Below are positions 907 through 38,802 of a stretch of DNA of 38,802 nt, piece after piece. Position numbers and translations under genes: made by a program. The notes under the pieces are model-generated. The model made no database searches. It saw only the letters and a list, made by a program, of their open reading frames with translations, and was not told where the DNA came from. The stretch is from a virus: positions 1 to 38,802 of IMG/VR virus record IMGVR_UViG_3300003691_000027; one strand, 5' to 3'. Every line of letters starts with the position of its first letter. Within the stretch, counting starts at the first letter, position 1.

Positions 907-1341
907 ATGACTGATTTAACACGTAAAAATAACTACATGCAGAAGAAAGGTGTCTGCATCTTCGCTGGTTCTGTTGAAGAAGGTACTGAAGATAATCAAG
1001 TATCTGCTGTCAACGGTGACCATTTGTTAGGTAATTTGCCTCCTGATGCCATTATCACTAACGCTTACATGCACGTTGTGACCGTTTCTGATGCTGGTAC
1101 ATCGCTGACAGGTAAGTTAGGTACGGCTTCAGGCGGCGGGCAAATACTGACAGCTGCTAACCTTAAGGCTGCCGTAGGTAAAGTAGGTACTTTCGCCGGT
1201 CAGACTTTGACAGGTTCAGGTGTCCCGATCTGGCTTAACTTAGCTTACGTCGGTACAGCGGCAACTAACGTCGGTGAGTACATCGTTGCGGTTGAGTATC
1301 TTGAGTACACCAAGCACACTGGTGAGCTTACTAAGATTTAA
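907..1341 (+). CDS. Small capsid-adjacent structural protein
   Basis: A 144-aa protein of unknown family lies directly after the major capsid gene, with one base between TAA and ATG. It has no membrane segment and is rich in Gly, Thr, Ala and Val, with alternating hydrophobic stretches that suggest a beta-sandwich (for example IITNAYMHVVTVSD and VGEYIVAVEYLEY). A small beta-rich protein immediately behind the capsid gene and in front of a terminator is often a decoration or cement protein present at capsid-like copy number. That role is inferred from position and composition only; a head completion protein is the main alternative. Confidence 0.6.
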   Translation: MTDLTRKNNYMQKKGVCIFAGSVEEGTEDNQVSAVNGDHLLGNLPPDAIITNAYMHVVTVSDAGTSLTGKLGTASGGGQILTAANLKAAVGKVGTFAGQTLTGSGVPIWLNLAYVGTAATNVGEYIVAVEYLEYTKHTGELTKI

Positions 1342-2438: not shown

Positions 2439-4255
2439 TGACTAGGTTAGTGCGGAAAGCTTTAGCTACGCAGGAAGATTTAGTATTCGGGAAAGGCGAC
2501 ATAACACAGACTCGTAACGGTGTATCGTACCCACTGACCAAGATCAACATGATCGCCCCTGTTGTAGACATAGCAGAACGAGACACGCTAGATACTGATA
2601 AATTCACTCATTGTACTGTAGCTGGCGTACCTTACTCATGGGATGGCGCAGCATGGGTTAATCAAGGGTTAAACATTCCTTCGCTAGTGGTAGCTGATAA
2701 AGCAGCGGCAGTGTTACAAGCTCCTGATACTTCGTATACTATGTTCGTTCATGGCACTGATGGGGGATTGTTCCAAGCCGTCACTGGCGCAGTGGCTAGC
2801 ACATACTCAGACAATGGCGGCAGTTATTGTGGCACGGTGTTCATCCCGACGGGAGGGGACGGCAGTGCGGCATGGCAAAGAGTGTACATCGGAGCAGTAT
2901 TAGTTGAGTGGTTCGGCGCGTCAGCAGACGGCACAAACGATGACACAGCAGCTTCTATGTTAGCGTTAGCTAGCTTTAATCATGTAGTCTACAGCGCAGA
3001 GAATACTTACGCGCTAGCTACAGTAGAGATTGCATCTAATAAAGATATAGAGATCAACGGCACTTGCTTGATGTTAGCTAACAGCGCAGCAGGTACGAAC
3101 ATGTTCGAGAATGCTGACCTTGTGGGCGGTAACTCAGGCATAAGAATGTTCGGTATCGGTACTATCGATGGTTATAAGGCTGGGCAGTCAGGTATAACAG
3201 ACGCGGTATGGCACACATTAGTTCGCATTGATAACAGTGACGACATAGAGTTTAGCGTAGCTAATGTGACAGGAAACTATTTCCCTACGGCTACACCCTC
3301 GGATAAGACAACAGCCGCAGTCTACATAAGTAACTCGACTAGGGTTAGGTGTCATGATTCGATTGCCAAAGATTATGGACGAGAGGGCTTCTGGCTACAG
3401 TTGTGTAATAACTCCGAGATGTATAACATTCACACCGAAGGCGGGACAGATTCATGGTCGGGTACGCAGTTCTCAGGGGATTATAACAAGCAATACAACA
3501 TAACCACAAAAGATGCAGGAGCTGCTAGTGTGTCGTTTGATTGTCGATACTCATCACTTAGGGGTGTCACGGTCGATGACACGTCATATTTTCACGGTAT
3601 AAACTTTGGTCACGCCGGTATTCCAGCAGACGGCAGCGTTGCTTCCGATCTAGTGGTTAATGGGGCTGCTGATAAAGGTATTAATGTGGCCGCAGGGACT
3701 GTAGGGCTTAAGATAAGTGATTTCTACGTCTCAGGTTCTGGTGGGCATGGGGTGAACGCTTCTGACTCTTCTAACGACATTACAATTACCAACGGTAAAT
3801 CGACAGGTAATGCAGGTGACGGGGTTCGGCTATTCTCAGGGGCTGGTGTTACAAGTAGCAACTTTAAGTTAGGAGATGTGGATCTAACCGGCAACACCGG
3901 CTATGGGCTGGGAATGCAGGGCTGCACAGTTGATGTCAGTACCGCCGATCTATCAGGTAACACAGCAGGCACGATTGCAAGACTTAGCTCAGCAGTGGAG
4001 AATTTCACTAATGTAAGAGCGCACGCGACCGATGCGCTATCAGGTGGCGTTACAATCGCATCGCATGTCGTAGGGACTGGAACCACTGTCACGAATGCGA
4101 ACGTGTATCAAAACTCTAAGATAGTTATAGAAGCCTCCAACTCAGCTGGTGCGACTTGCGTACCTTATATTCGGGTCAAGAACGATGGCAGTTTCATTAT
4201 TGATTCTGTTACTACTCCGGGCGGTGGTGCGTTTATTAGGTGGAGTATTTTATAA
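2438..4255 (+). CDS. Tailspike with right-handed beta-helix
   Basis: This 605-aa protein is a receptor-binding tailspike candidate. Residues 1-40 look like a virion anchor, with the segment QEDLVFGKGDITQTRNG that resembles the N-terminus of the product of 17542-18105. Around residue 155 comes EWFGASADGTNDDTAA, the entry motif of the pectate-lyase-3 superfamily beta-helix. The rest is long, Asn- and Gly-rich and repetitive, with short strands typical of a parallel beta-helix (many DITITN- and VNGAADKG-like turns). Such spikes bind and often cleave surface polysaccharide. No catalytic residues can be assigned from sequence alone. The start overlaps the adaptor stop by one base, and the stop codon shares its last A with the ATG of the next gene. 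Confidence 0.82.
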   Translation: MTRLVRKALATQEDLVFGKGDITQTRNGVSYPLTKINMIAPVVDIAERDTLDTDKFTHCTVAGVPYSWDGAAWVNQGLNIPSLVVADKAAAVLQAPDTSYTMFVHGTDGGLFQAVTGAVASTYSDNGGSYCGTVFIPTGGDGSAAWQRVYIGAVLVEWFGASADGTNDDTAASMLALASFNHVVYSAENTYALATVEIASNKDIEINGTCLMLANSAAGTNMFENADLVGGNSGIRMFGIGTIDGYKAGQSGITDAVWHTLVRIDNSDDIEFSVANVTGNYFPTATPSDKTTAAVYISNSTRVRCHDSIAKDYGREGFWLQLCNNSEMYNIHTEGGTDSWSGTQFSGDYNKQYNITTKDAGAASVSFDCRYSSLRGVTVDDTSYFHGINFGHAGIPADGSVASDLVVNGAADKGINVAAGTVGLKISDFYVSGSGGHGVNASDSSNDITITNGKSTGNAGDGVRLFSGAGVTSSNFKLGDVDLTGNTGYGLGMQGCTVDVSTADLSGNTAGTIARLSSAVENFTNVRAHATDALSGGVTIASHVVGTGTTVTNANVYQNSKIVIEASNSAGATCVPYIRVKNDGSFIIDSVTTPGGGAFIRWSIL

Positions 4256-4509
4256 TGGATCAACAAACACTCATAAACGCACTGATAGGTGCTGTGTTTA
4301 TGCTAGGAGGCGCACTACTCCGCGCAATTTGGCAATCGCAAAGGGAGCTGCAGGCAGATAACAAAAAGATAGCCCAAGAGCTAAGCAGCGTTAAAATTTT
4401 AGTGGCGGGTGAATACGCTACCCGCACCGATGTAGATCGAAAGTTCGACGCTATGCTTGAGAAGTTAGATCGGATAGAGAGCAAACTTGACAGGAAGGTG
4501 GATAAATGA
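4255..4509 (+). CDS. Membrane-anchored coiled-coil lysis-region protein
   Basis: This 84-aa protein has one N-terminal membrane segment (about residues 7-24, LINALIGAVFMLGGALLRAI) followed by a charged coiled coil that ends KLDRIESKLDRKVDK. Small proteins of this build are common in phage lysis cassettes, where they are annotated as holin-like or accessory membrane proteins. The ATG at 4255 forms TAATG with the tailspike stop, which decides this start over the upstream in-frame GTG at 4240. It is followed, with a 4-base overlap, by a second small membrane protein. Whether this is the holin, an antiholin or an accessory factor cannot be decided from sequence. Confidence 0.6.
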   Translation: MDQQTLINALIGAVFMLGGALLRAIWQSQRELQADNKKIAQELSSVKILVAGEYATRTDVDRKFDAMLEKLDRIESKLDRKVDK

Positions 4510-4697
4510 AAACTAAATTCAGGGAGTCGTCTACTTTTGTCGTAGTGATCGGGCTATTGGTGCTTGAGCATGTGTTACTATATTTAGGAGCGTTTAACGA
4601 ACCTACACTCACTGAGTACGGGGTAGCCAATACCGCTCTAATGAGCATTTGGCTTGGTAGGGAGTGGAGAGTTGCGCACTACACAGGGGGCGGGTGA
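4506..4697 (+). CDS. Holin candidate, two membrane segments
   Basis: This 63-aa protein has a hydrophobic helix at about residues 10-30 (FVVVIGLLVLEHVLLYLGAF) and a second, weaker one around 40-52 (ANTALMSIWLG), with charged ends. Size, topology and position directly before the spanin genes fit a class II-type holin, which makes lesions in the inner membrane at the time of lysis. It overlaps both neighbours (ATGA with 4255-4509, and TGATG with the Rz-like gene), so the lysis genes are translationally coupled. Confidence 0.6.
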   Translation: MKTKFRESSTFVVVIGLLVLEHVLLYLGAFNEPTLTEYGVANTALMSIWLGREWRVAHYTGGG

Positions 4698-5062
4698 TGG
4701 AGTGGCTACTGCTGTTCTCCCTTGTGTCGGGCCTCGCTAATTTCTGGCAGTATGGTGAGAATCAAGAGCTGGAAACGAAGCTAGCCATTTCCAATCGAGT
4801 GGCTAAAGAGTGTCAACGAGCGGACATAGACGAGCATGAATTGGCATTGATTGCCGCTAACGATAGGGAACAGACTAATGAAGCTATTAGAAGGATCAGC
4901 GCTAGATCAGAACTCAACATTAGAAACATTAATCAAAGTTCTGGGGGCGCTTGTGATCTTCTTCCTAGTAAGGGTGGAGTGGAAAGAGTACAAAGCCACA
5001 TTGATCGCACCGATGCCATTAATCGTGCGTGGTTGCGAGGTTCCGGCGAGGGTGAAGACTGA
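4697..5062 (+). CDS. Rz: Inner-membrane spanin, Rz-like
   Basis: This 121-aa protein begins MEWLLLFSLVSGLANFWQYG, a signal-anchor helix, followed by a long charged helical region (residues 25-85) suited to a periplasmic coiled coil. That is the build of an i-spanin, which pairs with an outer-membrane lipoprotein to fuse the two membranes in the last step of Gram-negative lysis. The ATG at 4697 shares its A with the preceding TGA. An in-frame ATG at 4664 exists but would lie inside the previous gene and would place polar residues before the anchor. A second gene lies nested in the +1 frame, as in the lambda Rz/Rz1 pair. Confidence 0.75.
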   Translation: MEWLLLFSLVSGLANFWQYGENQELETKLAISNRVAKECQRADIDEHELALIAANDREQTNEAIRRISARSELNIRNINQSSGGACDLLPSKGGVERVQSHIDRTDAINRAWLRGSGEGED

Positions 5063-5210
5063 CAAGTTCTTACCAGTCCAGCCAACACTTTCGGCAGGGC
5101 CGACGAACAAACAAGAGGCGCAGTGGCACGCTACGAGAAGCGCCGCGTTAGAGCAGTTAGCTATCGACTTAATTAACGACAGAAGGGAACTGGCGAGGGT
5201 TTGCAAATGA
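4953..5210 (+). CDS. Rz1: Outer-membrane spanin, Rz1-like, nested in Rz
   Basis: This gene is read in the +1 frame relative to Rz; it starts within Rz and runs 148 bases past its end. From the GTG at 4953 (preceded by a GGGGG tract) the product is 85 aa. It has a short hydrophobic leader and a candidate lipoprotein cysteine at residue 28 in LIVRGC, comparable to the VVVGC of lambda Rz1 except for Arg at -2, which is unusual. After the cysteine come Pro-rich residues (PARVKTDKFLPVQPTLSAGP), also typical of o-spanins. The exact start is uncertain: GTG at 4974 or TTG at 5001 are alternatives, and the frame is open upstream to 4851. The nested position is the strongest argument. Confidence 0.6.
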   Translation: MIFFLVRVEWKEYKATLIAPMPLIVRGCEVPARVKTDKFLPVQPTLSAGPTNKQEAQWHATRSAALEQLAIDLINDRRELARVCK

Positions 5211-5593
5211 TAAAACTTGACACATGGCGGAACGAAGATTGCACACTGGGCAGACTTAGCTACGGAGAGTTTAAGTGCTTCACGTTAGAGCTGCCCGACC
5301 GAGACAACCAGCAAGATATTTCTTGTATCCCTGCTGGCCGGTATCGCGTCACCAAGTACAAGTCGCCATCAAAGGGTAACGTGCTGTTGCTGCATAACGT
5401 AGTTAATCGAACGTACATTGAGATTCACGCGGGTAATTACACTCGCCAGATTCTAGGTTGCATCTTGGTAGGTAACGCCATTAAATATATTGATGGTGAC
5501 ACAATTCCTGATGTGTCTAACTCTCGTAACACGCTTAAAGCGCTACTTGCGGCTGTACCTATCAACACCGAAATTGAGATCACACGTAGATGA
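5207..5593 (+). CDS. DUF5675 family protein in lysis cassette
   Basis: This 128-aa protein carries the signature of DUF5675: FTLELP, then CIPAGRYRV, then a central hydrophobic strand LLLHNV, then YIEIHAGNYTRQILGCILVG. The family is widespread in phages, often beside holins and spanins. A peptidoglycan-cleaving role has been suspected but not shown for most members. No other endolysin was recognised in this genome, so this gene is the best endolysin candidate by position. His (in IHAGN) and Cys (in GCILVG) are possible active-site residues. The ATG at 5207 overlaps the Rz1 stop by ATGA, which is preferred over the TTG two codons upstream. Confidence 0.7.
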   Translation: MIKLDTWRNEDCTLGRLSYGEFKCFTLELPDRDNQQDISCIPAGRYRVTKYKSPSKGNVLLLHNVVNRTYIEIHAGNYTRQILGCILVGNAIKYIDGDTIPDVSNSRNTLKALLAAVPINTEIEITRR

Positions 5594-7479: not shown

Positions 7480-7988
7480 TGGCAAATTCTAGTGTTGTCA
7501 CCTTACCCGCTGATTTGAACGATATAGAAGCTATGCGCAGGTTCCTAACTAAGTTGGTCGAAGAGGTGGACACCTTATTAGGCTACAGGGGTGAGGATGC
7601 AGCAGTAACACAGGAAGATATAACAACGCTTAAGGAGCAGATCAACGCGATCAGCACTGGGCTTGCTCAGCAGGTCATAACTGTGAACACGGCATCTGAT
7701 ATTTTAGCTACCACAGGTCTGACGTTTTCGCAAGCGGATGTGATCACTGATTACACTACAGCAGGTAACGAGACTATAAGGTGTATAAATACAGCACCTA
7801 TAACAATAACAATGCGGGATGCTCCATTAACTTCTGAGCGGGTTTACATAATACAGACGGACGCAAGGGTCACAGTGGATGGGCGAATCAGGAATATAAA
7901 TGGGTCGCCAAGTATTCTAATGAATACAAAGAAATTAGTTCGAGAATTGTTGTATAATGCAGCATCTAATGAGTGGTTAATAATATGA
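7479..7988 (+). CDS. Virion-arm protein of unknown function, 169 aa
   Basis: The family is not recognised. Residues 10-65 are predicted helical with heptad character (DIEAMRRFLTKLVEEVDTLL, then ITTLKEQINAIS). Residues 75-169 are beta-rich, with Thr and Ile in alternation (IRCINTAPITITMRD) and a conserved-looking end KLVRELLYNAASNEWLII. A helical coiled-coil base with a C-terminal beta cap is a common build for short trimeric fibres or fibre connectors, and the gene lies between tail genes. This is an inference from composition and location. Both ends overlap neighbours (ATGG and ATGA). Confidence 0.55.
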   Translation: MANSSVVTLPADLNDIEAMRRFLTKLVEEVDTLLGYRGEDAAVTQEDITTLKEQINAISTGLAQQVITVNTASDILATTGLTFSQADVITDYTTAGNETIRCINTAPITITMRDAPLTSERVYIIQTDARVTVDGRIRNINGSPSILMNTKKLVRELLYNAASNEWLII

Positions 7989-9412
7989 GCTACACACCAC
8001 CAATAAATTATGCTAAGTCTGCGTTAGGGCAGATGATCGCAGTGTCTGAGTATCCAGTGGCGCAACTCTCAGCTGAGTATGGCATTTTGCCTCGATTGAT
8101 GCTTGAGACCACTGTATCGTCTGGCGCTGTATCGATAGACACAAACGACTTTAAATGTGACTCAGGCAGCTCAGCAGACGGGTTAGCAAGTATTCAAACG
8201 CGAAAGCTTGTTAAGGCGGCAGCTGGCAGAGGGTTATCATGTCGATTTTCTGCTTTATTTTCTACTCCACAAGCCTCTTCTTTATTACTGGCCGGTTTAT
8301 TTTCAAGTGAGAGCGGGTTTACTGTAGGGTATTCTGGAGCCACTTTCTGTTTTATGCGGTTACATGGCGGCGCGTCTGAATCACAGAAGTTAGCTTACTC
8401 GACAGGTGCGACAGGGTCTGAGACAGCCACTATCACGTTAGACGGTGTTGGCTATTCTGTGAACTTGACAGCTGGGACAACAACGCACAACGCAACCGAG
8501 ACAGCGTCACAGTTACAAGGCACTGTGCCTAACATGATTGTCACAGCGAATAACTCTACTGTGTATGTACAATCCCAAATTTCTGGCCCTTTAAGTACGT
8601 TCTCGTTCTCCTCTGCAACGGCTGTAGCAGCGTGGACACAAGTTAGGGCAGGTGTGGCCATTCTGATAGAAACGCATAACCAAGCAGATTGGAATAACGA
8701 TACTTTCAGTAGTTTAGACCCGTCCAAAGGTAATGTGTACAGCATTCAACAGCAGTATTCAGGGTACGGAGACGTGACCCTCTCAATAGAAGACCCAGAA
8801 ACTGGGGAGTTACAGCTGGCCCATACAATCCAATATACTAACGCTAACACAACCCCTATTGTAGCGAGTCCGGCCTATCGTTTAGGGTACGCCACCAGAA
8901 ATGTTGGTAACACGACACCAGTATGGGTTAAAGGCCATACAGTTGCCGCCTTCATAGAAGGGGAAGTGACAAGAAGCAGTGATTTTGAAAGTACAAGTAA
9001 TGAGCAGCTTAGTGTAGGCACTACGAATACTAACGTTGTATTGATACGTAATAGGGACACATTCTCTAGTAAGTTTAACCGAATAGAAATGTTCCCGTAC
9101 ATGCTATCTTTAGCTACTCAAGGTAGTAAAGGGGCGTTCTACGATATTATCGCTAACCCAACATTTACTACTGAGCCGGTATTCAGCTTTATAGATGAGG
9201 TCAACTCTGTTGTTGAGGTATCCACAGATAAAGTAACATTAACTGGGGGAAATGTGATTATGTCGTTCACGGTAGCGACAGAGCCGGTAGTTATTAAAGT
9301 GTCGGACTCTGACTTCGCGGTATCCCCCAGTGATACTTTCTGCATCGCAGCTAGAGTTCCATCGGGGGCATCCGCAGATATGCAAGCATCCATCGTATGG
9401 TCGGTAGGGTGA
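7985..9412 (+). CDS. Virion-arm beta-rich structural protein, 475 aa
   Basis: This is a large protein with no recognised family. It is rich in Thr, Ser, Ala and Val, has no membrane segments, and shows long stretches of alternating polar and hydrophobic residues as in virion decoration, fibre or spike proteins. A central region (about residues 140-230, with ATITLDGVGYSVNLTAG and FSFSSATAVAAW) resembles a small immunoglobulin- or carbohydrate-binding-like beta domain. The C-terminal 100 residues form another compact beta unit. The ATG at 7985 is chosen because it makes ATGA with the preceding stop; the in-frame GTG at 7973 would extend it by four residues. It probably belongs to the tail tip or fibre set. 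Confidence 0.6.
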   Translation: MSYTPPINYAKSALGQMIAVSEYPVAQLSAEYGILPRLMLETTVSSGAVSIDTNDFKCDSGSSADGLASIQTRKLVKAAAGRGLSCRFSALFSTPQASSLLLAGLFSSESGFTVGYSGATFCFMRLHGGASESQKLAYSTGATGSETATITLDGVGYSVNLTAGTTTHNATETASQLQGTVPNMIVTANNSTVYVQSQISGPLSTFSFSSATAVAAWTQVRAGVAILIETHNQADWNNDTFSSLDPSKGNVYSIQQQYSGYGDVTLSIEDPETGELQLAHTIQYTNANTTPIVASPAYRLGYATRNVGNTTPVWVKGHTVAAFIEGEVTRSSDFESTSNEQLSVGTTNTNVVLIRNRDTFSSKFNRIEMFPYMLSLATQGSKGAFYDIIANPTFTTEPVFSFIDEVNSVVEVSTDKVTLTGGNVIMSFTVATEPVVIKVSDSDFAVSPSDTFCIAARVPSGASADMQASIVWSVG

Positions 9413-22398: not shown

Positions 22399-24012
22399 TT
22401 ATACCGTTATGGAATATAGGAAGTCACCTTTCTCTATACCGCCCCAGTTATACCCTACACGCACTTCTACTGGCATAGGTAAATCTGAAATCTGGAAGCA
22501 CTTTGACATCTCAGTCCACGCTTCCTGCATTGTGTCTGCTAACTGCTTAGCCACTGGTTCGTAAATAGCCGGATCGGACGGGCAATCCAGAATGTAGCTA
22601 TCGTGGATAAAGTTTACAAGTTGTACATCTTCAGGCAGGTTCAAGTAATGCAGAGCTAACTTAGCTACCTCAGCACCAGCGCCTTGATTCTCAATATTTA
22701 GCTGATCTGTCATTAGCTTGCCGGTGTATGGACGACCTAGTGGGGTGTGTCCTAAGCGGCCCTTGCGCCATGCTGCAATACCGCGCTGCTGCCACGCCGC
22801 AATCTCACGCCATAAGCTTAGCCACCTAGCCTTAGCACGTTGGGTGTCTGCTCGTTTAGCCTGTGTACCCACACTCTTGAGCAGTATAGATATAATCATA
22901 TCCACACCACCACCGTACAATAAGTTAAAGTTATAAGTCTTAGTGATTTGCCTGTGCTCTGGTGTCCAGTCGTCGCCGAAGATCATCTTAGCTACGAAGC
23001 CGTGCAGATCCGCACCTTCGCGGAACAGCTCAGCCATAAGCTCACAGTTCACAATAGCGCAGATTGTCCGCAGCTCAAGTTGCGCATAATCTGAGAACAC
23101 AAGCACTCGTCCATTGTCAGGCGTGTAACCAAACACTCGCTTAAGCGCTCTCGGTATCTGCTGTAGGTTGTCATCACTGGATGTTAAGCGGCCTGACTTA
23201 GCTGAAGGCTTAAATTTACCTAGGACTCTAGGTTTGTCATACTTCTTGAGGAAGCTGAGTTGTTTCTTTAGTTTCTTTGTTTCGCGGATTTTAGCGGCTT
23301 CAGTGTTGCCATCCGCTATCATAGCAGCAAGTGCTAGATCATCAGATTCTGTACTGCCTAGATGTGCTCTAACCTGCTGCCACGAGTTAACATTAATCTT
23401 GACACCAATCTCTTCAATACGGGCTGTGTTAGCTACGGTCATTTCTGCTATGCGCTGCTGGTCTACTGGCATACCGTTCCATTGGAAGTCTAAGCATTTG
23501 CGTAGAACGTGCATATCTAATGAATAGCTAGGTGATTCCTGATTAACTAACTCCCACAATGCAGGCATGTGCTGCACGTCGATAGATGCGTACTGTAGTT
23601 GCTCCGGTGTCAGAATCTCGGCAGACCAGTCAGTCTTTTGAAGTTTCTTCTTATCTAAACCAGCCCTTATATATGGGTCGTAGCCTAGCAACGTTTCCAG
23701 CACGGCATCTAATGAGAATGCAGCGTTGCGAGGTAGTGCTATGCGGGATAGTAAGAATGTGCAATCCAGTCTGTTAGGTATCCAGCGTGTGCCGGTCTGT
23801 TGCTGGATTGTTGTTATGTCGTAGTGTGCGTTATGCCATACAGTGTGATGCTGGCCGATAAACATAGCTAACTCATGTGGATCGGGCCACCTTATAAGTA
23901 CAGGTTCGTCCCAACCCTTCTGCATGAGCTGTAATAAGCTTATCTTACCGTAGAATCCGCACGTTTCTGTATCGCAGAACAAAGGCAGTTCTGGATCTGT
24001 TTGTACGTCCAT
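22399..24012 (-). CDS. DNA polymerase, family A
   Basis: This 537-aa replicative polymerase has a 3'-5' exonuclease domain: DTE at 14-16 (Exo I), NAHYD at 61-65 (Exo II) and YASID at 141-145 (Exo III). The polymerase domain has motif A DYAQLELR (308-315), motif B RQITKTYNFNLLYG (354-367; Lys358, Phe362, Tyr366) and motif C HDS (470-472). Phe362 corresponds to E. coli Pol I Phe762. Motif C has Ser where HDE is usual; the metal-binding Asp471 is kept. The ATG at 24012 is chosen because CAGGAGT stands in front of it; a longer form to 24096 would run into the neighbour. No 5'-nuclease domain is present, as in other phage polymerases. Confidence 0.94.
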   Translation of the reverse strand: MDVQTDPELPLFCDTETCGFYGKISLLQLMQKGWDEPVLIRWPDPHELAMFIGQHHTVWHNAHYDITTIQQQTGTRWIPNRLDCTFLLSRIALPRNAAFSLDAVLETLLGYDPYIRAGLDKKKLQKTDWSAEILTPEQLQYASIDVQHMPALWELVNQESPSYSLDMHVLRKCLDFQWNGMPVDQQRIAEMTVANTARIEEIGVKINVNSWQQVRAHLGSTESDDLALAAMIADGNTEAAKIRETKKLKKQLSFLKKYDKPRVLGKFKPSAKSGRLTSSDDNLQQIPRALKRVFGYTPDNGRVLVFSDYAQLELRTICAIVNCELMAELFREGADLHGFVAKMIFGDDWTPEHRQITKTYNFNLLYGGGVDMIISILLKSVGTQAKRADTQRAKARWLSLWREIAAWQQRGIAAWRKGRLGHTPLGRPYTGKLMTDQLNIENQGAGAEVAKLALHYLNLPEDVQLVNFIHDSYILDCPSDPAIYEPVAKQLADTMQEAWTEMSKCFQISDLPMPVEVRVGYNWGGIEKGDFLYSITV

Positions 24013-24055
24013 TATTACTCCTGAGAATGGTGATAACCACCGTAAGTTTATGTGT

Positions 24056-24322
24056 TTATGCGTGTAAGTTAGGCACTGTAGCTGATATAGTACCACCGTT
24101 GGCCGTTACTTCAATACTAAAGAAATCTTTTATTGCTGCTTGGTTGTAATTACCTGACTCTGTGATAGTACCTACCAGCTCTAATTTATCAGGTTCGTCA
24201 CCTTGCTTAATCAGCACTGTACCTGTTGATGACATCACAATAGTGAAGTCTGGTGCTATCTTACCACGATCCCTGAATACTGTCTCGCTTACTGTGCTTG
24301 TTGCTGCATCAATAATAATCAT
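24056..24322 (-). CDS. Small beta-rich protein in fibre cassette, 88 aa
   Basis: The family is not recognised. The sequence is wholly beta in character (TSTVSETVFRDRG, FTIVMSSTGTVLIKQG, FFSIEVTANGGTISATVPN), similar to small virion or fibre-tip domains and unlike its replication neighbours. Its start overlaps the stop of the spike-like gene by ATGA, so it is co-translated with it and is likely a chaperone, tip or companion of that protein. It ends 43 bases before the polymerase start. Confidence 0.6.
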   Translation of the reverse strand: MIIIDAATSTVSETVFRDRGKIAPDFTIVMSSTGTVLIKQGDEPDKLELVGTITESGNYNQAAIKDFFSIEVTANGGTISATVPNLHA

Positions 24323-26103
24323 ACTTGCTCCAATTCTACTTTAGTTAGTGCTACTTTAGTTAGTGCTACTTTAGTTAGTGCTGTTAGTCCGAAACCAGCG
24401 CCAAACGACATACTCGGGTCATTCATAATATCAACAGCGTTATCCCCTACCCACGCCTGCACGGTGCTTATGTCGCTAGTGCTAGGCGGCATACCACTGT
24501 ACATAGCTAACGATCGGATCGTTGACCGCTCGGACAATGTATTCATTAGTACCAGCGTTGCGGCTGCCGTGAACCCGTCGAAAGTGGCTGGCGTACCGTC
24601 CCAGTCCATAGTTGTCATCGTATCTTGTGAGTAACCAACACATAGATAGTTGTTAGTTTTATCGTAAATAATGGACGCGATAACCTCGTCGCCTGCCGTG
24701 TTGTTATTGACAGAGCTGCTTGTCGTAGTGCCGTCCGTTGAATAAAGACCGTCAGCGCCTGCTGTCATATAAGCTAGTTTCGCCGAAGCGCCATCATAAA
24801 GATATTCAGCTGCACCGGAGTTTGTCCAATCGTCGTCAGGTGTGAATCCGAAAATAACCACGCCATTATCTGCATTGAACCATGTACTAAAATCAGAGAT
24901 GTCCAATTTATCGGCGCTGCGTGTTACTGCAACTGTCGTTGTTTCGATTGGGGTTGTCGGCTGCGTGCCTTCCTCATTCTGAGCAAAATCGACAATAATC
25001 TCATCGCCACTTGTTACAATTCTAAACCCAATTGATGGGTTAGCTTGCGTTCGTGTCAGCTTCACTTCCGAGAATGTAGACGAGTTTATATCACCTGTTA
25101 TCGCGGTGTATGTTGTGCCGCCATCGTCTGTGAATTCAATAACGCCCGTGCCAGTTTTCCGCTTGACTTGAAAGTGATTAGTGAATCCAGCAGACGCAAT
25201 GGTGATAGCGTTGAATATCGTTCCGTTAGCTGCTGTTGCTGTCAGTGTCGAAGCGGCATTTGCTTTGCCATCTACACCCACTGCATCCAGCAATGGTGTT
25301 ATATTTGTTGCTGCCCAGTTTGCGTGAGTTAAATCACGGCTTGGCCATAATGAGTTAGTGCGTTGTGGCTGTAGCTGAATCTGTGGAACTGGGGATACTG
25401 CCGTGCCTGCTGCTTCTGTTACTACATTGCCTGATACACTATTGCCATTCGTATCTGCGTAGTATTTAACACCGTCAACACCATAGCCGTAATTAATATC
25501 GATTAAATGCTCAGGTGGTGATTTATTGCTCCGCCCTGTCACAACAATAATCCCTACTTTAGTAACATCGATAACAATTGTCCCTGTTCCGTAGTTCCTA
25601 AGCCATACCCCTACTTTATGCGCCCCTAGAATCCTGCCGTCATCTGAGACTACGGTATAAACTGACGTTATCTTATCTTGCAGGTCGTTGAAACCTAGCC
25701 CAGTTGATCCACCAACTGGGTCTGAGAACGCAAGCCCAGTTGTGCTACCACTAACTAATTTTACTGATGCGTATGCTGCAACGAGAACATCAATAGAGAA
25801 AGTTTCTGTAGTTCTGTCATGTACCCCAGCGCCCGCCGGTAATGTTACTCGATAAGCCCCATCCCCGCTATCAACGACGGTCGCCCCCGTTCCGCTTTTA
25901 GTCCACAGCGTGACATCTTGCTTATCCCCCATGTAGTTATACTCACGTCGAGCGCCAGCACTAACGGTCTCATTGGGGAATGTCTCTACAAGCACACCTT
26001 CGTGATCGTAAAATGCACTAGGGGAAGTGTTGGTATTTGTAAGGCTAACGCCTGATGTGTGTTCAGCTAAATTTTTGAGGTGATACGAAGGTTTAAAAGC
26101 CAC
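24319..26103 (-). CDS. Spike/fibre-like virion protein in replication arm, 594 aa
   Basis: This is a large beta-rich protein. Residues 255-340, with NSLWPSRDLTHANWAATNITPLL and FNAITIASAGFTNHFQVKRK, look like the phage head-spike/fibre carbohydrate-binding-type domain found in many phages (pattern N-L-x-x-S-x-D-x-x-x-x-W). The N-terminal 200 residues and the LamG-like region around 400-560 are also beta. The C-terminus is three perfect ALTKV units ending VELEQV. Structural proteins are otherwise all on the + strand, so its place between polymerase and SSB genes on the - strand is odd. It may be a late-acquired moron whose product decorates the virion or the cell surface. It overlaps the upstream barrel-protein gene by 11 bp. 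Confidence 0.65.
   Translation of the reverse strand: MAFKPSYHLKNLAEHTSGVSLTNTNTSPSAFYDHEGVLVETFPNETVSAGARREYNYMGDKQDVTLWTKSGTGATVVDSGDGAYRVTLPAGAGVHDRTTETFSIDVLVAAYASVKLVSGSTTGLAFSDPVGGSTGLGFNDLQDKITSVYTVVSDDGRILGAHKVGVWLRNYGTGTIVIDVTKVGIIVVTGRSNKSPPEHLIDINYGYGVDGVKYYADTNGNSVSGNVVTEAAGTAVSPVPQIQLQPQRTNSLWPSRDLTHANWAATNITPLLDAVGVDGKANAASTLTATAANGTIFNAITIASAGFTNHFQVKRKTGTGVIEFTDDGGTTYTAITGDINSSTFSEVKLTRTQANPSIGFRIVTSGDEIIVDFAQNEEGTQPTTPIETTTVAVTRSADKLDISDFSTWFNADNGVVIFGFTPDDDWTNSGAAEYLYDGASAKLAYMTAGADGLYSTDGTTTSSSVNNNTAGDEVIASIIYDKTNNYLCVGYSQDTMTTMDWDGTPATFDGFTAAATLVLMNTLSERSTIRSLAMYSGMPPSTSDISTVQAWVGDNAVDIMNDPSMSFGAGFGLTALTKVALTKVALTKVELEQV
24336..24380 (-). repeat. Three perfect 15-bp tandem repeats
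   Basis: The unit CTACTTTAGTTAGTG (+ strand) is present three times without mismatch at 24336-24350, 24351-24365 and 24366-24380, inside the 3' end of the spike-like gene. It encodes the pentapeptide repeat ALTKV. Perfect identity means recent expansion or homogenisation, and copy number is likely to vary between isolates. Confidence 0.9.
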
Positions 26104-26824
26104 GGGTTACTCCGAAAGAGGCTGTAAATACACATAAATCTGAGTAACCTTTGGTGTAGTCAGCGACCAGATCAAGCGAGGGGTTTAACGCTACCCGAAC
26201 ACCACCGGAAGCCGTGACATTCTCGCTAAAGTTTTTCGTACCTGTCCTAGCACTGGCATAAATACCGAACCAATCTACAAAATCATAGCTAAAGTCAGCA
26301 GTGACACCACGATAAGCTGTAATGTCGTCCACATCTCGGTCATACTCTGATGTCTGAACTGGGGTAGCTAATTCAACCATCAGGACGGGCATGTAATACC
26401 GGATAACAGCACTATTTAAGAAGCGGGATATATTTCTGTTATCCTCTATCTCAAGAGTGTCAGTGTCACCTTCCCGATCTAAGTACTGCCCATCTTGCCC
26501 GTTAGATTCATGCTGAATACCAAACATGAAGTTATTAGCTCGCACTAATGCACCTAGCCTGTACATCTCTGGGGATACAGGGTCACTGTCCATATCACTG
26601 TGCATCAAGAACTTAGTCTGCATTTCAAACACAAATGCTGAGCTGTCATCAATGTTGATAAAGTATTGCACATCCCCACCGAACGTGTACGCATCCTCTC
26701 GTTCCGGTAGTTCCGTGATGTAATCCCGCGACATGCCTAGACTATAATCAGCCGAGCTTTCCGTGGGAACGCCTGCATAAGCAATAGTAATCATTGATAA
26801 AAGTAAAAGTAAAATGTAACGCAT
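26093..26824 (-). CDS. Outer-membrane lipid hydrolase-like beta-barrel protein
   Basis: This 243-aa protein has a Sec signal peptide (residues 1-17, MRYILLLLLSMITIAYA) and then amphipathic strands of a beta-barrel, ending with a terminal strand that closes in Phe (TASFGVTRGF), as for outer-membrane insertion. Residues 102-110 read GIQHESNGQ, the His-x-Ser-Asn motif shared by outer-membrane phospholipase A (PldA: His142, Ser144) and by the lipid A deacylase PagL. SRFLN (133-137) resembles the SRSWN that carries catalytic Asn156 of PldA; Glu118 would be a PagL-like alternative. Start at 26824 is set by AAGGAG and the signal peptide. It may attack host phospholipid or lipid A, for lysis or surface change. 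Confidence 0.62.
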   Translation of the reverse strand: MRYILLLLLSMITIAYAGVPTESSADYSLGMSRDYITELPEREDAYTFGGDVQYFINIDDSSAFVFEMQTKFLMHSDMDSDPVSPEMYRLGALVRANNFMFGIQHESNGQDGQYLDREGDTDTLEIEDNRNISRFLNSAVIRYYMPVLMVELATPVQTSEYDRDVDDITAYRGVTADFSYDFVDWFGIYASARTGTKNFSENVTASGGVRVALNPSLDLVADYTKGYSDLCVFTASFGVTRGF

Positions 26825-26842
26825 GGGTGGATCTCCTTGATA

Positions 26843-26862: not shown

Positions 26863-27252
26863 TCACAGCCGTGTAAGTTTAATAACGTCGACGTTGGGCA
26901 GTAGCACACTGGCAGAATTTGCAAGGGCTTGCGCATTGCGGGATTTATTGATCTCAAGCAGAATGTTCTTCTCCAAAGCTTGCGCCGCTTCGTACTGCGT
27001 GGTGTCCAGCTTCGCAACGACCAACTTGTATGAGATTCTTACGTCGAAATCAATCGCCATAGGGTCTGTAACAGTGCGAACCTGCACTACTTTGAACTCT
27101 CTATCTGGGGTTTGCACGATAACCATGTCGCCTTCTTCGAGAGGTAACATAGTTTTGTACGTGTAAGTTTTGTCACCTGTGTAGGGTGCGAATACAGTCT
27201 CTACAAAGCGGAAGTCAGGGTTGTTAGCTAACAGTAAATTTACGTCGTTCAT
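26863..27252 (-). CDS. Hypothetical 129-aa replication-arm protein
   Basis: The family is not recognised. It has a short helical start, then a beta-rich core (YTYKTMLPLEEGDMVIVQTP, EFKVVQVRTV) with a KOW- or SH3-like look, and a long C-terminal helix (YEAAQALEKNILLEINKSRN) followed by a hydrophobic end. The ATG at 27252 is used; the frame also has a TTG at 27264, and neither has a strong Shine-Dalgarno. The short core followed by a helix is seen in small phage proteins of unknown role near SSB genes. It ends directly before the fibre cassette. Confidence 0.55.
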   Translation of the reverse strand: MNDVNLLLANNPDFRFVETVFAPYTGDKTYTYKTMLPLEEGDMVIVQTPDREFKVVQVRTVTDPMAIDFDVRISYKLVVAKLDTTQYEAAQALEKNILLEINKSRNAQALANSASVLLPNVDVIKLTRL

Positions 27253-27287
27253 AACAGTATCCAATGTTTGTGAGAGCGGTTATTAAT

Positions 27288-38485: not shown

Positions 38486-38802
38486 ATGACTACCGCAGTA
38501 GTAGCACTCGATTCAGACCTTAAGCGCAAGAAGTGGATGCGTGAAGGTTTGATCCAAGCAGCATCCAAATCATTTTGGACACCTTATACGGGCAACTCAA
38601 AAGACTCTATCATATTTCAAACAAACAACACCAGCGCTTCCGAAGGGCATACAGTTGTTTTCGACTTTGATGGCAATCTATCCGGCAAAGCAATTAAAGG
38701 TAAAGACACTGCGTTCGGAAAAGGTGAGCAGAAGAAGAAATTCTCCGATAAAGTGACAGTTGAGCGTTATCGCTTAGTTGTTGACAATGGCGATCAGTTT
38801 GA
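38486..38802 (+). CDS. Major capsid protein, N4gp56 family (5' part)
   Basis: This is the N-terminal part of the capsid gene, beginning MTTAVVALDSDLKRKKWMRE and continuing through FWTPYTGN and EGHTVVFDFDGNLSG to the KFSDKVTVE shared with the start of the window. After removing the 73-base redundancy it joins in frame with 1-905, giving 382 aa. The N-terminal helix followed by the FWTPYTG and GHTVVFDFDGNLSG strands is characteristic of the N4gp56 family. AAAGGAA is the Shine-Dalgarno. Confidence 0.88.
   Translation, partial: MTTAVVALDSDLKRKKWMREGLIQAASKSFWTPYTGNSKDSIIFQTNNTSASEGHTVVFDFDGNLSGKAIKGKDTAFGKGEQKKKFSDKVTVERYRLVVDNGDQF

Follow-up and report, generated by a model that had tools for sequence, protein, structure and literature searches.

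A probable divergent homologue of the outer-membrane phospholipase OMPLA/PldA in a small podovirus genome

Can a phage carry an outer-membrane lipid hydrolase of its own, and what would such an enzyme do for it? The question is raised by an open reading frame at 26093..26824, on the minus strand of a viral DNA of 38,802 nucleotides (IMG/VR record IMGVR_UViG_3300003691_000027). The whole of this DNA is called the window here. The initial annotation had proposed that the product, referred to below as OMP, is a lipid hydrolase of either the PldA or the PagL type. To our knowledge, phages have few known means of passing the outer membrane, and these, the spanins and the disruptins, are not enzymes. 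Spanins are a membrane-anchored pair of coiled-coil protein and lipoprotein, and disruptins are small peptides, whereas OMP is a predicted barrel enzyme, for which an analogous role at the outer membrane would be possible.

The gene belongs to a phage genome. An exact terminal repeat of 73 bp is found at 1-73 and 38730-38802, and each end of the contig holds one part of the major capsid gene. It follows that the contig most likely represents a whole genome of about 38.7 kb that closes into a circle, with the OMP gene truly inside a phage. Judged by its terminase, primase, portal and capsid, it stands near Pseudoalteromonas phage PH1, Vibrio phage VPMS1, Edwardsiella phage KF-1 and Dickeya phage Amaethon, and the phage is a small marine-type podovirus of the KF-1/PH1-like kind.

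The reading frame begins with ATG and has 243 codons. A Shine-Dalgarno-like AAGGAG (26833..26838, minus strand) lies 8 nt before the start. The features read from this frame in the initial annotation are all present: a signal peptide, a C-terminal Phe, GIQHESNGQ at residues 102-110 and SRFLN at residues 133-137, while its barrel-like strands correspond to about 12 amphipathic strands. The predicted Sec signal peptide covers residues 1-17 (26774..26824, minus strand) and reads MRYILLLLLSMITIAYA, followed by G, with the boundary at AYA/G. Residues 2-17 are helical in the AlphaFold2 (AF2) model, with a pLDDT of about 73 for residues 1-10. Sec signal, barrel-type strands and terminal Phe are shared with OMPLA/PldA (PF02253; PDB 1qd5, 1qd6 and 7ezz).

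Family membership is difficult to read from curated profiles. The Pfam profile PLA1 (PF02253) matches residues 93-229 with 15.8 bits and an E-value of 0.011, under its gathering cut-off of 27 bits. In a pairwise BLAST with E. coli PldA nothing significant is found, only a 9-residue motif, and hhalign of the lone OMP sequence against eight PldAs aligns just 16 columns. A profile search, which had been suggested as a check, gives a clearer answer. The profile was built from 88 proteins (80 taken from bacterial genomes and from one provirus, the PldA of E. coli, and seven PldAs carried on plasmids) and scores OMP at 25.4 bits, compared with 8.0 bits for the best of 2000 plain shuffles. The best of 3000 shuffles that preserve parity, and with it the alternation of the strands, reaches 7.0 bits. 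Among 3151 reading frames from the loci collected, the best non-PldA besides OMP scores 6.7 bits.

Could this similarity be no more than the HESNG motif? It could not, because the scores persist when the motif is taken away. With residues 102-112 deleted, OMP still scores 11.4 bits, against 9.3 for the best shuffle, and a fragment made up of residues 113-243 scores 13.3 bits, against 6.3. Judged on sequence, the similarity to PldA goes beyond HESNG. Taken by themselves, residues 1-101 have no significant similarity to the PldA profile. For the C-terminal part alone, the alignment opens exactly at SRFLN (SRSWN in PldA) and passes through DITAYRG (DIxxYxG) to GYSD (GYGE). The order of HxSNG, SRxxN, DIxxYxG and GY in OMP is that of OMPLA, and a lipid-facing His/Ser pair is predicted as in OMPLA. 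It is very probable that the two proteins are homologous.

These scores also bear on the idea that OMP is a generic small porin-type barrel, like OmpW or OmpX, in which HxSN arose by chance. The generic barrel profile OMP_b-brl does match OMP, with 17.4 bits and an E-value of 0.0054, but this is under the required 28.7 bits. The PldA similarity survives removal of the motif. E. coli OmpF, OmpT, OmpW, FepA, CusC and NfrA all score below 0 with the PldA profile, and E. coli OmpA and OmpX are not reported by it at all. A chance motif in a porin-like barrel is therefore very unlikely.

The same can be said, even more strongly, of a lipid A deacylase of the PagL type, which would alter LPS. PagL, a lipid A 3-O-deacylase, has eight strands and a His-x-Ser motif with a Glu, and its HxSN is like that of OMP. 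Unlike a PagL, OMP has no match to the Pfam PagL profile even at E<=10, and both its size and its colinear C-terminal motifs fit PldA. The PagL half of the original proposal is therefore dropped as extremely improbable. Another profile, LpxR (PF09982), has no match anywhere in the genome. The PldA half stands, with a colinear profile match, places for all triad residues, and a strand that faces the right way.

The placement of these residues can be followed along the sequence. HESNG, residues 105-109 (26498..26512, minus strand), aligns with the OMPLA active-site motif, in which His, Ser and Gly are invariant in 91 of 91 PldAs. In the profile alignment, H105, S107 and N137 correspond to the OMPLA triad His142-Ser144-Asn156, and S133 to Ser152, which we take to be a calcium ligand. 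N137 and S133 both belong to SRFLN, residues 133-137 (26414..26428, minus strand), the point at which HMM alignments begin when C-terminal fragments, or the protein with its motif masked, are used. Of the 91 aligned PldAs, 90 have Asn or Asp at the Asn position. Global MAFFT alignments move the register of SRFLN by four residues relative to the profile alignment; for this reason N137 is the better-supported, but not the sole, choice for the putative triad Asn. Further on, DITAYRG, residues 167-173 (26306..26326, minus strand), and GYSDL, residues 226-230 (26135..26149, minus strand), align with DIxxYxG and GYGES(L) of OMPLA.

In OMPLA the triad lies on the outer surface of the barrel (PMC5043575). 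In OMP, the candidate strand 5, NFMFGIQHES (residues 98-107), has a value of +1.22 on its odd face, which holds H105 and S107, and of -1.80 on its even face, and is thus hydrophobic on the side of the two residues. Going by strand alternation, H105 and S107 would face lipid, as expected for an active site of the OMPLA type.

Other parts of the protein differ. Identity to OMPLA is about 20%, the N-terminus is shorter, and the signature motifs YTQ, SPFRETNY and GYGES(L)(I)DY are absent, with SDP...P and GYSDL all that remain. Gln94 of OMPLA is not kept. Residues near position 68 were considered as an equivalent of YTQ and dropped, Met68 being the residue that falls in the Gln94 column. Ser80 falls in the column of OMPLA Ser106, a calcium-site residue, in the MAFFT alignment only. 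The loop between HESNG and SRFLN (residues 110-132; 26429..26497, minus strand) is 23 residues long, compared with 5 in 87 of the 88 PldAs in which it is measurable, and is acidic, with eight D/E and two K/R.

These losses leave room for an OMPLA-derived barrel that lacks useful catalysis and acts as an outer-membrane decoy or receptor mask. Strong divergence and the loss of YTQ and LIDY fit such a protein, and so does the long, acidic loop at the surface next to the active site. However, His, Ser, Asn and the putative calcium-ligand Ser have been kept in spite of about 20% identity elsewhere, and a non-catalytic barrel is quite unlikely. The pattern of conserved residues suggests instead that OMP is probably catalytic. 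With a score under the curated Pfam cut-off and incomplete signature motifs, OMP is treated here as a divergent homologue whose mode of action is probably that of OMPLA, and not as a certified member of PF02253.

Comparison of predicted structures had been proposed as a further check. From the single OMP sequence, AF2 gives a pLDDT of 31.7. When 62 PldAs are supplied as the alignment, the pLDDT rises to 66 with a pTM of 0.60; the C-terminal strands are well formed and the N-terminal half is poorly modelled, so that the twelve strands of OMP remain candidates. A Foldseek search of the PDB with this model ranks OMPLA structures first to eighth (E-values from 1.2e-4 to 3e-3, query TM 0.47-0.59), and porins follow from an E-value of 0.045. 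In the viral structure library there is no match at E<=0.001, and the best, weak match is an OmpC-like phage porin. That match could be taken to favour a generic porin, whereas the PDB ranking, with OMPLA well before the porins, speaks against one. The comparison upholds the PldA assignment insofar as the only clear PDB matches are OMPLAs; because a PldA alignment guided the model, these matches are supporting and not independent evidence.

Close homologues of OMP were not found in IMG/VR, INPHARED, or GTDB genomes or plasmids, using pattern-seeded and single-sequence scans that divergent homologues could escape. Scans of the same type over 369 gammaproteobacterial genomes and 296 genomes of the same order gave no convincing homologue, only one chance-like match of 38 residues, and a scan seeded with DNPDI found no relatives.

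How common, then, are PldA-type genes in phages? No family in PHROGs v4 matches even E. coli PldA. INPHARED matches to E. coli PldA comprise two Salmonella records, two contigs labelled 'Acinetobacter phage MD-2021a' and one unverified fragment of 4.3 kb, and none is a verified phage case. One of the two Acinetobacter contigs was opened (CAKLQF020000008.1); it is a bacterial chromosome contig around pldA, with trkG, ilvA and rpiA. A further PldA gene, lying at one end of a provirus contig that comes from an isolate (L049), looks like a host gene and was rejected as a phage gene.

In seeded scans of IMG/VR, three other contigs were found to encode complete PLA1 proteins that pass the Pfam cut-off; these proteins are missing from PHROGs. 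In a 151-kb phage (L137), the gene lies at 7749-8513, near a tail-tube gene; this record also has a terminase (phrog_2), the only one of the three to do so. In a 71-kb contig (L138) it lies at 7791-8609, beside genes for anaerobic ribonucleotide reductase, DNA polymerase and ThyX, and the surroundings of its active site are altered (HNSTG, HRSIN). In a 49.9-kb contig (L136) it lies at 262-1032. The viral status of the 71-kb and 49.9-kb contigs rests mainly on IMG/VR and on gene content. Like OMP, these proteins are phage-encoded and of the PLA1 family type. Unlike OMP, they exceed the Pfam cut-off, and they occur in unrelated phages and in other gene contexts. Phage OMPLAs look rare and sporadic, and the remark in the initial annotation that such enzymes are rare in phages is borne out by the lack of a PHROG or a verified INPHARED case, with three other contigs in IMG/VR. 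No paper describing a phage OMPLA was found in the open-access literature.

Further clues come from the gene neighbourhood. OMP is the first gene of a three-gene insertion between a small conserved gene and the DNA polymerase gene, and shares its orientation with the replication genes. The small gene (26863..27264, minus strand; phrog_13551, a homologue of PH1 gp12), which is found beside the DNA polymerase in relatives, flanks the insertion upstream, and the family A DNA polymerase (22399..24096, minus strand; phrog_17) flanks it downstream. Where both flanking genes were detected in a relative, they almost always sit side by side or close to it, and these relatives yielded no copy of any of the three inserted genes. 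The PLA1 profile has no match in 36 related phage records. GC content is uniform across the insert, and sites resembling sigma-70 promoters are no commoner than in shuffles.

The second inserted gene (24319..26103, minus strand) begins with a GTG that overlaps the OMP stop and encodes a tail/lectin-like protein of 594 residues (phrog_5939 tail protein, E-value 2e-8). PH1 gp01, a protein of 783 residues, has no counterpart in this genome, and the 594-residue protein may for that reason be a relocated receptor-binding protein. The third gene (24056..24322, minus strand) encodes 88 residues with no family match.

The OMP gene is in the replication operon, outside a lysis-like cassette at 4240-5593 on the plus strand. 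That cassette encodes transmembrane proteins, an Rz-like i-spanin (phrog_89, E-value 0.001) and a DUF5675 protein, and its genes are likely to be the lysis genes. A crude lipobox scan for an o-spanin in the window and six relatives gave no convincing candidate, so that its absence here is nothing specific. Elsewhere, the label 'Rz-like spanin' (PHROG 20969) on the gene at 907-1341, plus strand, looks wrong: the gene comes after that for the capsid, and its product lacks both a signal and a transmembrane segment and resembles a decoration-type protein.

What would a phage do with such a protein? In the explanation that we prefer, to which we give an even chance of being right, OMP is a far-diverged phage OMPLA, a latent, calcium-dependent outer-membrane phospholipase that weakens the outer membrane when virions are released. 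It would be exported by its Sec signal, inserted through the BAM pathway and kept latent as a monomer. OMPLA itself is activated by Ca2+ and dimerisation (PMC5043575). Once the envelope is disturbed and lipid asymmetry is lost, OMP would likewise dimerise with Ca2+ and cleave phospholipids of the outer leaflet. A latent enzyme of this kind could be made early and then fire at lysis. The least certain step is the last, in which cleavage would leave the outer membrane weaker during virion release. Host OMPLA aids the release of colicins, and it is by analogy with this that the purpose of OMP may be lysis.

The main rival to a lysis role is that OMP is an active OMPLA-like enzyme that remodels the membrane in early or mid infection, either clearing phospholipids from the surface or raising LPS through PldA signalling, and so keeping the cell intact or closed to other phages. 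PldA is a sensor of asymmetry that raises LpxC and LPS through fatty-acid signalling (PMC5874903), which suits this proposal. The OMP gene shares an operon with replication genes, the DNA polymerase among them, and is encoded together with a tail/lectin-like gene; both would fit remodelling as well. Against it, a PldA encoded by the host would already serve. Remodelling is rather unlikely on our assessment, and the likelihoods attached to it and to the lysis explanation divide the cases by purpose.

If OMP is the enzyme that its sequence suggests, a phage outer-membrane phospholipase would mean an enzymatic opening of the outer membrane, or a new way of altering the host surface. A doubtful extension is that certain phages encode an outer-membrane phospholipase as a latent factor dedicated to breaching, produced early and set off by the collapse of the envelope, which would be an enzymatic alternative or aid to spanins. 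Such genes may go unnoticed in current phage annotation, because PHROGs offers no family that matches E. coli PldA and INPHARED no verified case. Since OMP is a copy of PldA/OMPLA that is missing from 36 related records and from catalogued phages, it may help this phage to break or remodel the outer membrane of its host.
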